From: a virus
DNA length: 26,731 nt
IMG/VR virus record: IMGVR_UViG_3300020417_000426
Location: 1-26,731 of that record
Direction: 5' to 3' (one strand)
Position numbers and translations under genes: made by a program
In this document: positions 4,248-20,855 of the stretch, in pieces
Layout of the letters: each line of letters starts with the position of its first letter
Numbering within the stretch: position 1 is the stretch's first letter
Notes under the pieces: generated by a model
What the model was told of the DNA's origin: nothing
Seen by the model: the letters and a program-made list of their open reading frames with translations, nothing else
The model's database searches: none

Positions 4248-4282
4248 AAAAGGGAAGGATTAATTTTTTTCCCTTTTTTTTT
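4248..4282 (+). terminator. Second terminator-like hairpin in tandem
   Basis: AAAAGGGA (4248-4255) can pair with TCCCTTTT (4270-4277), followed by further T residues. The stem is weaker than the hairpin just upstream, but the pair together would insulate the early region from the lysis genes. A-rich on the left and T-rich on the right, it could also act on the opposite strand. Confidence 0.5.
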
Positions 4283-7770: not shown

Positions 7771-7938
7771 ATGGCAAAAAACAATCACAATCCAATAGAA
7801 AATCAAGTAATGGACTATTGTAGGCAAAAAATAAAAAAAGAACAAGAGGTACTTAAATATATAGAAGAAAATAAACCAATACTAACAGAGCTTGGATATG
7901 AAATCAAAAAAAAAGAATTATCTAACGTATCTGAATGA
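7771..7938 (+). CDS. 55-residue hypothetical protein
   Basis: Reads MAKNNHNPIENQVMDYCRQK, then a charged helix (KKEQEVLKYIEENKPIL). First ORF after the promoter-like sequence and preceded by an A-rich leader. It overlaps the following ORF by 41 nt. Soluble, mostly helical, no recognised family. Confidence 0.5.
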   Translation: MAKNNHNPIENQVMDYCRQKIKKEQEVLKYIEENKPILTELGYEIKKKELSNVSE

Positions 7939-8137
7939 AAACTATTTTTTTGAAATAGGCTATGTAAAAAAAGAAAGTAATATTAAATATATAAAAATGA
8001 AAAAACAAAGACAATTTAGAAGCAATCAAGGTAGGGATCCTAAAAAAGATGAAATAACATATCAGACCATAAAGTTTGCGTTTATAATATTATTTATGTG
8101 TTTATGTTTTTTTTTGATATTAGAGCAATGGATATAA
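7898..8137 (+). CDS. Small protein with a C-terminal membrane segment
   Basis: From ATG 7898 it is 79 residues; a TTG 6 nt upstream is a weaker choice. A separate, more typical start may be the ATG at 7997, giving MKKQRQFRSNQGRDPKKDE. The C-terminal 20 residues (KFAFIILFMCLCFFLILEQWI) are strongly hydrophobic, so it is likely a tail-anchored membrane protein with a basic cytoplasmic head. Its function in the early block is unknown; small early membrane proteins often modify host envelope functions. Confidence 0.45.
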   Translation: MKSKKKNYLTYLNENYFFEIGYVKKESNIKYIKMKKQRQFRSNQGRDPKKDEITYQTIKFAFIILFMCLCFFLILEQWI

Positions 8138-8379
8138 AAGCAAAACAAAAGTATGAGGCATCTTTTAATTACTTAGGTGGGGCTATGGCATTAGCATTCG
8201 AAAAAGCAAATACTATAAGAAAAAAAGAAATAGGTAATTATATAAAATGTTTAAATCAAATGTACAAATACACAAATAAATTGGAAACAAAACTTATAAA
8301 ACAAGATTATGAAAATAATACAACTTTTAGACGGAAACGATTACAACAAGCAAGACTTATTAAAAAAAATGGTAGATGA
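8128..8379 (+). CDS. 83-residue basic helical hypothetical protein
   Basis: The ATG at 8128 (MDIKAKQKYEASFNYLGGAM) is preferred; the longer GTG-initiated reading would translate the membrane-coding end of the upstream gene in another frame. Very rich in Lys/Arg near the end (FRRKRLQQARLIKKNGR). It overlaps the upstream ORF by 10 nt and the nuclease gene by 71 nt. No recognised domain; a nucleic-acid-binding role is possible from charge. Confidence 0.5.
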   Translation: MDIKAKQKYEASFNYLGGAMALAFEKANTIRKKEIGNYIKCLNQMYKYTNKLETKLIKQDYENNTTFRRKRLQQARLIKKNGR

Positions 8380-13618: not shown

Positions 13619-14269
13619 ATGAGAGTAAAAATTAGTGTACCTAATGACTTGTCAGAAATCAAACTATGGCAGTATCAGAAGTTCTTAGAAATACAAAAAC
13701 AGAATAGTGATGAAAACTTTTTAGCAAGTAAAATGATAGAGATATTCTGTGGTATAGAACTTAAAGAGGCCTATAAAATGAAAGCTAAAGATGTTCATAG
13801 AATCACAGGAATACTTGCAGATATGTTTGAACAAAAGCCTGTACTTATAAACAGATTTTATCTAAATAATATTGAGTATGGTTTTATACCAAACTTAGAT
13901 GATATGACTTTAGGAGAGTATGTTGATCTTGATACTTACTTGCCAAAATGGGAAGAGATAGAAAAGGCTATGGCAGTATTGTACAGGCCAATAACAAAGA
14001 CATATAAAGGTAAATATCAAATAGAAGATTATACAGCTGAAGGTCAAGATGCTTATAAAGATATGCCTATGAGTATAGTCTTTGGTGCTATGTTTTTTTT
14101 TTATCGTTTAGGGATAGACTTGTCAAAGATTATGACATTTTATTTGGAACAGAACAAGGACATTCACTCACAGCTCTCTCACAGTTTGGGCAAAAATGGG
14201 GATGGTATCAATCAATTTATGCACTCTCTCAAGGAGATATTAGAAGATTTGAGAATATCACTGAATTAA
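13619..14269 (+). CDS. Tail assembly chaperone-like protein, 0-frame product
   Basis: 216 residues from ATG 13619; the TTG 36 nt upstream lies inside the terminator T run and is rejected. Landmarks are LWQYQKFLEIQ, IEIFCGIELKEAYKM, GFIPNLDDMTLGEYVDLDTYL, EKAMAVLYRPIT and MPMSIVFGAMFFFYRLG, a pattern I associate with a conserved Bacteroidota-phage family at the start of tail operons. The end is GKNGDGINQFMHSLKEILEDL. The last 79 nt also encode protein in the -1 frame, and the gene has two candidate slippery sites: T10 at 14093-14102 and TTTGGGC at 14185-14191. By analogy with lambda gpG/gpGT this is probably the short chaperone form; the function is inferred. Confidence 0.72.
   Translation: MRVKISVPNDLSEIKLWQYQKFLEIQKQNSDENFLASKMIEIFCGIELKEAYKMKAKDVHRITGILADMFEQKPVLINRFYLNNIEYGFIPNLDDMTLGEYVDLDTYLPKWEEIEKAMAVLYRPITKTYKGKYQIEDYTAEGQDAYKDMPMSIVFGAMFFFYRLGIDLSKIMTFYLEQNKDIHSQLSHSLGKNGDGINQFMHSLKEILEDLRISLN
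14185..14191 (+). other. Candidate -1 ribosomal frameshift site (TTTGGGC)
   Basis: TTTGGGC fits XXXYYYZ and is in the required phase: the 0 frame reads T TTG GGC. After a -1 slip the next codons are CAA AAA TGG GGA TGG, entering the protein-like -1 frame. No strong downstream hairpin was found by eye. Confidence 0.55.
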
Positions 14270-14355
14270 ATGTACATAAATGTTTAACAATGCTAACCTT
14301 TATGAAAGAAAAAAGCGACTTAGAATCGAAACAAATAAAAAGTAAAATGAGATGA
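14191..14355 (+). CDS. -1-frame extension of the tail chaperone (probable frameshift product domain)
   Basis: Read in the -1 frame, this encodes QKWGWYQSIYALSQGDIRRF, then ENITELNVHKCLTMLTFMKE and KSDLESKQIKSKMR, a well-formed helical sequence. The frame is open from 14059 but has no ATG, GTG or TTG before the WGWYQS part, so a frameshift from the 0-frame gene is the simplest way to reach it. Its TGA overlaps the next gene's ATG (ATGA), the same coupling used elsewhere in this phage. A slip at 14185-14191 would make a fusion of about 245 residues. The first 79 nt are dual-coding. Confidence 0.68.
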   Translation, partial: QKWGWYQSIYALSQGDIRRFENITELNVHKCLTMLTFMKEKSDLESKQIKSKMR

Positions 14356-19012: not shown

Positions 19013-19155
19013 TACAAAGTATATTACAATTATTAGAGTTCGCAAATGGTGAAACTGAGAATATCAGAATAGCACAAGGTAAGTATGAGTTGCCAAAAAC
19101 TTTTACAAGAACATTCAAACAAATTAAAAATGAAATAAAATGGCAAAACAAATAG
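19009..19155 (+). CDS. 48-residue ORF between the tail-tip and tape-measure genes
   Basis: Begins MIQSILQLLEFANGETENIR with an ATGA overlap of the upstream stop, and ends in TRTFKQIKNEIKWQNK, running 16 nt into the tape-measure gene. It fills the only gap between two long virion genes, so translation is likely. Helical, soluble, unknown. Confidence 0.55.
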   Translation: MIQSILQLLEFANGETENIRIAQGKYELPKTFTRTFKQIKNEIKWQNK

Positions 19156-20855
19156 TAGTAGATTTCACAGTCAAAACTGGTGCTGCAACAAGAGAGGTAT
19201 CTGATTTAAAAAAAGAGATACAAAATGTTAACAAAGAAGCAGTCAAAGGCTCAGAAAAAACTGAACAAGGCCTTAAAGGTATAGAGAAAGCAAGTGATAA
19301 GGCATCAAGTGGTATAGGCAGAATTGGTACAGCTTTTAAGGCACTTGGTATAGGTTTATTAATTGGTGCTTTTGCAAAATTTACAGAAGTCTTAAATTCA
19401 AATCAAAGAGTTGCAGATTTTTTTGCTACTACCTTTGAAACTGTAAGAATTGTTTTTAACGATTTTATAAATTTAGTATTAGACAATGTTGGTGGTGTAG
19501 CTGATTCCTTTAAACAAATATTTTCTGTAGAGGGTATAAAGAATTTTGGAAAATCACTTTTTGAAAATGTAATTGAAAGATTTAGATCAATGTTAGATGC
19601 AATAGGGTTTGTTGGTACAGCTATAAGAAAAGTATTTGAGGGAGATTTCAAAGGTGCAGCAGAAAGTGCTAAAAATGCTGGTAAAGAATTATTTGATGTA
19701 ATAACAGGTGTTGATAATAGTTTTGATAAAACAATAGAAACAGTTACTAAAGTTGCAGAAGCGACAACTAAATATGCAACTGAAACAGTAAAGACAGCAA
19801 CAGCTAATGTAAAACTTGCCAACTCAGCTCAATTATTAAATGCAGAAAATCAAGGCCTCATTGAAAAATACGATGTACAAGCAGAACAGCAAAGACAGTT
19901 AAGAGATGACACCTCTTTAAGCATAGAAGAAAGAATAGCTGCTAATAAAAGGCTTGGAGAAATATTAGATGAACAATCTGAAGTAATGCAAAAAAATGCA
20001 CAAGTAGCAGTTGATGCAGCTAGGGCAGCTTTAAAAGGTAATGAAGATAATATCGAATTACAAACTGCTTTACAAGAAGCTCTAAATGAACAAGCAGCAA
20101 TACAAGCAAGAGTTACAGGCCAAAGAAGTGAACAGCTCACAAATGAAAATGCTTTGCTTGATGAACAAAAAGAACTAAACAAAGAATTAGCTTTAATAGG
20201 AAAAACAGAAAGAGAAATAGAACTTATAGAATTAGAACAAGCTCTTGCAGATAAAAAAGCGTTAATAGAAAAAGAGGTTACTAATGAAGAAGAAAAAAAT
20301 AGATTATTGTTAGCAGCTCAAGATGACTTTAATAAAAAGAAAGAGGCACTTGATAAAGAAAGTGGAAAAGAAGAAGTAAAAATAACTGAGCTTACTCAAG
20401 AGGCAAAACTTGCTATAATATCAGGTGCTTTAGGTGGACTTGCAAATTTAGCAGGTGAGAATAGCAAATTCGGTAAAGGAGTAGCTGTTGCACAAGCAAT
20501 CATTGATACTTTTGCAGGAGCAAACAAAGCTCTTGCACAAGGCGGTATATTTGGTGCTGTTGCAGCAGCAGGAGTTATAGCATCAGGACTTGCTAATGTT
20601 AGAACTATTTTATCAACAAAGACACCTGACGCACCAAGTGGTACAGGAGCAGGTGGTGGACGATCTTTTAGTTCAGGAGGCGCAGCTCCACAAGCACCAT
20701 CATTTAATATAGTGGGTGCTGATACACAAAATCAATTAGCACAGACTTTAGCAGAACAAACACAAAAACCTGTGAAAGCATTTGTAGTATCAGGAGATGT
20801 AACAACAGCACAAAGTTTAGATAGAAACATAATTAGAGAAAGTGCTATAGGATAA
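19140..20855 (+). CDS. Tail tape measure protein
   Basis: 571 residues. The N-terminal third is helical with coiled-coil repeats (TREVSDLKKEIQNVNKEAVK, KGIEKASDKASSGIG) and a hydrophobic membrane-like segment (FKALGIGLLIGAFAKF, ~67-82). The centre (~230-430) is a long Gln/Glu/Ala/Leu-rich coiled coil, and the C-terminus is Gly/Ala-rich (AIIDTFAGANKALAQGGIFG, AAAAGVIASGLANV) with a Gly/Ser linker. This composition is typical of tape measures. Using the rule of ~0.15 nm per residue, the tail would be near 85 nm, short for a siphovirus. It has no recognisable peptidoglycan hydrolase motif. Confidence 0.85.
   Translation: MAKQIVVDFTVKTGAATREVSDLKKEIQNVNKEAVKGSEKTEQGLKGIEKASDKASSGIGRIGTAFKALGIGLLIGAFAKFTEVLNSNQRVADFFATTFETVRIVFNDFINLVLDNVGGVADSFKQIFSVEGIKNFGKSLFENVIERFRSMLDAIGFVGTAIRKVFEGDFKGAAESAKNAGKELFDVITGVDNSFDKTIETVTKVAEATTKYATETVKTATANVKLANSAQLLNAENQGLIEKYDVQAEQQRQLRDDTSLSIEERIAANKRLGEILDEQSEVMQKNAQVAVDAARAALKGNEDNIELQTALQEALNEQAAIQARVTGQRSEQLTNENALLDEQKELNKELALIGKTEREIELIELEQALADKKALIEKEVTNEEEKNRLLLAAQDDFNKKKEALDKESGKEEVKITELTQEAKLAIISGALGGLANLAGENSKFGKGVAVAQAIIDTFAGANKALAQGGIFGAVAAAGVIASGLANVRTILSTKTPDAPSGTGAGGGRSFSSGGAAPQAPSFNIVGADTQNQLAQTLAEQTQKPVKAFVVSGDVTTAQSLDRNIIRESAIG

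Follow-up and report, generated by a model that had tools for sequence, protein, structure and literature searches.

How could a viral gene be read into a second frame that lacks a start codon of its own? The question is raised by a gene in a 26.7-kb virus record, all 26,731 nt of which form the window analysed here. As a first-pass annotation of the same DNA had described, the 0 frame of this gene is overlapped by a -1 frame that continues to a TGA, and this TGA in turn overlaps the ATG of the next gene at 14352. The -1 frame is open from 14059. It was also right that the -1 frame has no start codon ahead of its WGWYQS motif: between the T run and that motif there is no ATG, GTG or TTG. The features are listed in Table 1.

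Judging by comparison with related sequences, this gene apparently yields two proteins with different ends by means of a frame switch, and apparently does so across a large group of flavobacterial viruses. The switch looks real and strongly conserved, and it is undescribed for this group in the literature searched. The two products are best explained by programmed transcriptional slippage on a run of Ts, a reading to which we give a probability of about 0.6.

Table 1 Features of the frame-switched gene, in window coordinates.
Feature	Position	Strand	Evidence
0-frame product, probable tail assembly chaperone, short form, 216 aa	13619-14269	+	ORF from ATG 13619 to TAA 14267-14269; 80 homologous loci at 42-98% identity; confident fold over about residues 1-160
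-1 frame extension, 86 codons FFLSFRDR...KWGWYQSIYALSQGD...KSKMR, then TGA 14353-14355	14095-14355	+	Same -1 domain in all homologues; no start codon from run to KWGWY in window
T10 run, conserved putative slippage site; in-phase T_TTT_TTT at 14095-14101	14093-14102	+	At least 9 T in 213/213 distinct sequences and in 76/76 of the unbiased sample
Dual-coding overlap, purifying selection on both frames	14103-14269	+	-1 frame fourfold-degenerate sites: 18.5% differ inside vs 47.1% after the 0-frame stop (102 disjoint pairs; P 4e-18, sites pooled over pairs and treated as independent)
TAG stop of third (+1) frame, inside conserved TTTAGG	14109-14111	+	+1 frame closes within 2-5 codons in 103/103 clusters
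TTTGGGC heptamer, rejected as shift site	14185-14191	+	Present in 2/102 clusters

Conservation of the T run and of both frames

The 80 loci of Table 1 were found by scanning viral contigs with the 0-frame protein. In the loci that are readable in both frames, the -1 frame encodes the same domain, FFLSFR.RL...YD.LFG....QFG.KWGWYQSIYALA.GDI.RFENIT.L..H.CL.ML.FMKEK..LE..QIK. Scanning with this -1 domain gave at least 600 matches among viral contigs, as well as three loci in Bacteroidetes/Flavobacteriaceae MAGs, and 400 genomes from the family of one of these MAGs contained two more copies. A tblastn search of cultured phages with the -1 domain found no match. With two distant 0-frame homologues as queries, Nonlabens phages P12024S and P12024L were the only cultured relatives found.

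The pooled set consists of 213 distinct sequences, in which T runs from T6 up were accepted. Comparisons by cluster use 103 clusters at 80% identity of the -1 protein; these clusters have common ancestry and are not independent events. The pool includes an unbiased sample, for which 80 contigs were chosen solely because their DNA fits a pattern for the KWGWY motif, ignoring the T run; 76 of these have sufficient upstream sequence.

The T run, which the first-pass annotation had put forward as its second candidate for the shift site, turns out to be universal. The pooled sequences have T9 (154), T10 (58) or T12 (1), and neither T7 nor T8 occurs. In the unbiased sample the counts are 64 for T9 and 12 for T10. 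Elsewhere in the 707 kb of that sample, runs of at least nine Ts in the same orientation occur 27 times.

Upstream of the run, the 0 frame is open for at least 154 codons in the unbiased 76, and the -1 frame for at most 34. The -1 ORF opens just a short distance upstream of the T run, which means that the frame must be changed at or after this point.

Every cluster has T_TTT_TTT in phase, and the floor of nine is kept with the surplus Ts placed 2+0, 1+1 or 0+2 around this heptamer. The residue encoded before the heptamer is V, L, I, F, S or G, and the one after it Y, W, L, F, S or C. Where the heptamer's first T is the third base of a V, L or I codon, that codon is NTT in 92 of 92 cases. Both the conservation of the Ts and the third-frame stop may partly follow from the amino acids needed in two frames.

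The window has other T9 runs. One, at 8107-8115, falls within the overlap of a pair of short ORFs (7892-8137 and 8098-8379), of which the downstream one is in the -1 frame of the other. Those at 4274, 13576, 24695 and 25283 lie between annotated ORFs or near gene starts, and are possibly terminators.

Dual coding had been claimed for 14191-14269. It holds up, but its extent was set too short: both frames appear protein-like and selected from the T run on, at 14103, which makes about 55 codons in the window and not 26. Past the run, the 0 frame is open for at least 27 codons in all 103 clusters and for at least 52 in 101. Were the -1 protein alone of importance, just 6.3 of the 103 would be expected to stay open for about 50 codons, so the overlap is not a product of chance.

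The suggested alignment of homologues also found synonymous change to be depressed in both frames. At 0-frame fourfold-degenerate sites, 16.5% differ in the overlap against 46.1% upstream (102 disjoint pairs; P 3e-79, with sites pooled over pairs and treated as independent), and the -1 frame gives a similar picture (Table 1). Selection appears to act on both proteins across the overlap. The overlap is about 57 codons in general and goes up to about 90. Overlaps of about 90 codons are seen in some members, among them L177, L196, L200, L204 and L240, in which the 0 frame stays open past the run for so long that almost all of the -1 ORF is covered twice.

Explanations for the frame switch

With programmed transcriptional slippage, one gene would give two co-linear proteins that have residues 1 to ~159 in common and differ in their C-termini. 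Normal expression would produce the 216-residue 0-frame form. In a fraction of transcripts, RNA polymerase would slip on the T9-T10 run, by +1 U (or by -2). Ribosomes would then read the -1 frame, leading to a form of ~245 residues with the conserved KWGWYQSIYALA...MKEK domain at its C-terminus. If lambda gpG/gpGT is a guide, the pair would be the short and extended forms of a tail assembly chaperone, and their ratio would depend on how often the polymerase slips.

T runs above 8 have been tied to transcriptional realignment (PMC3711429), and the E. coli polymerase has a bias to slip on poly(T) (PMC6260861). Since seven Ts can be enough for this enzyme to slip (PMC6260861), the floor of nine should not be taken as a sharp biochemical threshold. 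For genes of Shigella, PMC4256274 quotes slippage efficiencies of 15-55%. Among open-licence papers, no account of transcriptional slippage in tail assembly genes was found.

The first-pass annotation had proposed a programmed -1 frameshift. A switch of frame is indeed strongly supported, but the ribosome as its agent fits less well than a slipping RNA polymerase. TTTGGGC, its first choice of signal, is in the phase claimed for it, yet unlike the T run it is not kept among homologues: any X_XXY_YYZ heptamer is found at that place in only 3 of 102 clusters.

A ribosomal -1 shift could instead take place on the in-phase U_UUU_UUU within the T run, using the mechanism of lambda G/GT at another slippery site. 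We consider this a serious rival, if rather less than an even bet. The heptamer it needs is present in every cluster, and U_UU.U_UU.U leads to above 0.1% frameshifting in E. coli without stimulators (PMC4066793). Tail assembly genes are also the classic site of ribosomal frameshifting (PMC5009743). For a ribosome, however, seven Ts would suffice, and none of the 213 sequences has fewer than nine. Nor does the heptamer ever end in C, even though a change to TTC would leave the 0-frame protein unaltered and U_UU.U_UU.C is active in E. coli (PMC4066793).

Stimulators, which are common but not obligatory for ribosomal shifting, were looked for around the run. Conserved RNA structure has a mean z of about 0 over 8 windows in the 103 clusters, and the virus window itself scores 0.49. 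An SD-like core is absent in 99 of 103 clusters, and no Rfam elements were found. What tips the balance from a ribosomal shift towards transcriptional slippage is the T9 floor, together with the third-frame stop and the lack of a detectable stimulator.

Homopolymer runs are error-prone and hypermutable, which raises the matter of sequencing error, a pseudogene or phase variation at the DNA level. This is the least credible explanation. More than 200 contigs share the out-of-frame arrangement, as do cultured phages and copies that look like prophages; the two halves are fused in frame in none of the 76 unbiased loci; and both frames appear to be under selection. A separate -1 gene, translated from a start codon of its own or by coupling to the 0-frame stop, is also very unlikely. 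An ATG does overlap the 0-frame stop in P12024L, where the record annotates a separate gene, and between the run and KWGWY an ATG is found in 3 of 103 clusters and a GTG or TTG in 32. In the other 68, which include the window, there is no start codon in that interval, and the -1 protein is conserved right up to the run and seemingly selected across the overlap.

Protein identity and known relatives

By analogy, the frame-switched protein is likely a tail assembly chaperone. This label, already given in the first-pass annotation, remains plausible. Of 26 members, 15 match phrog_166 (tail protein), with a best E of 3e-5. The AlphaFold model of the 0-frame protein has high confidence up to about residue 160 and low confidence past the run; in a fold search it hit many phage proteins without names and, weakly, a single protein annotated as a tail assembly chaperone (BFVD, E 0.013). 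The gene sits between the large terminase gene and the tail genes. All homologues have the two overlapping frames, with a predicted short product and a -1 extended one, which is a trait of gpG/gpGT chaperones. Proteins of that type are also expected to bind the tape measure and tube proteins and to be missing from the virion. Other comparisons lend the label no support. Searches of Pfam, NCBIfam and PDB sequences gave nothing usable, the 0-frame model has no fold match in the PDB, and similarity to lambda G and T is not detectable. The -1 domain modelled by itself is poor (pLDDT 57).

The arrangement resembles lambda gpG/gpGT and other tail chaperone frameshifts of dsDNA phages (Xu, Hendrix and Duda 2004, as cited in PMC5009743) in being a co-linear pair with a common N-terminus and a -1 extension in the structural module. 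It differs in having a run of at least nine Ts where lambda has a minimal heptamer, and in its long overlap, for which no stimulator was found. Nor does the tape measure candidate at 19140 follow the gene directly, as would be expected for a gpG/gpGT chaperone; it lies four genes and ~4.8 kb past 14355. At 32-33% identity over 59% of its length, this candidate (19140-20855) is similar to structural proteins from the Cellulophaga phages phi13:1, phi19:2 and phiST, which is consistent with a flavobacterial host.

Cases closer in mechanism may be the T run of Shigella mxiE and the A run of Thermus dnaX (both as cited in PMC3711429), and the A run of Citrobacter tssM (PMC4256274). Like the present gene, these have a homopolymer of at least nine, no SD or structure nearby, and two expected length variants. 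Here, in contrast, the gene is a phage gene with long dual coding after the run, and its slippage is predicted from sequence.

Nonlabens phages P12024L (genes 40/41; locus L082, 3001-3695) and P12024S (genes 38/39; locus L290, 1001-1695) carry the homologous pair, which corresponds to phrog_32199 and phrog_38404, both of unknown function. In the P12024L locus the T run is a T9, with ATCATTTAGGGA directly after it as in the window, and the -1 KWGWY domain is shared too. The overlap there is just 27 codons, with an ATG at the 0-frame stop, and in both phages each half is annotated as a hypothetical protein by itself. In P12024L, conservation covers both the T9 run and the part of the -1 frame that precedes the annotated ATG, so this pair is probably one frame-switched gene. 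This means that annotation can mis-split the -1 halves of such genes.

A likely counterpart gene in Flavobacterium phage 6H was left out as homologue evidence, given that its frames look broken twice and it has no T9 run. The protein, AGN89393 (locus L292, 10048-10927, minus strand), paired with the record by its length, is a candidate distant homologue by a distant fold match, and it stops short. Beyond its end the protein seems to go on in other frames, next to a gap of ~300 bases without annotation. Sequencing error or a different signal may be involved.

We give even odds to a broader statement: that throughout a clade of tailed phages of Bacteroidota, programmed RNA-polymerase slippage on T9-T10 takes the place of the ribosomal frameshift of tail assembly genes, with a locus built for all three frames, two of them giving selected C-termini and the third stopping at once. 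The Flavobacterium johnsoniae lineage seldom uses Shine-Dalgarno sequences (PMC8710568), and from this we infer that such phages may have no access to SD-type stimulation of ribosomal shifting.

The locus is a strong added example of long dual coding on the same strand. The T-run gene is also widely conserved and open to testing, as an instance where RNA polymerase, and not the ribosome, may determine how much of one phage protein is made relative to another.
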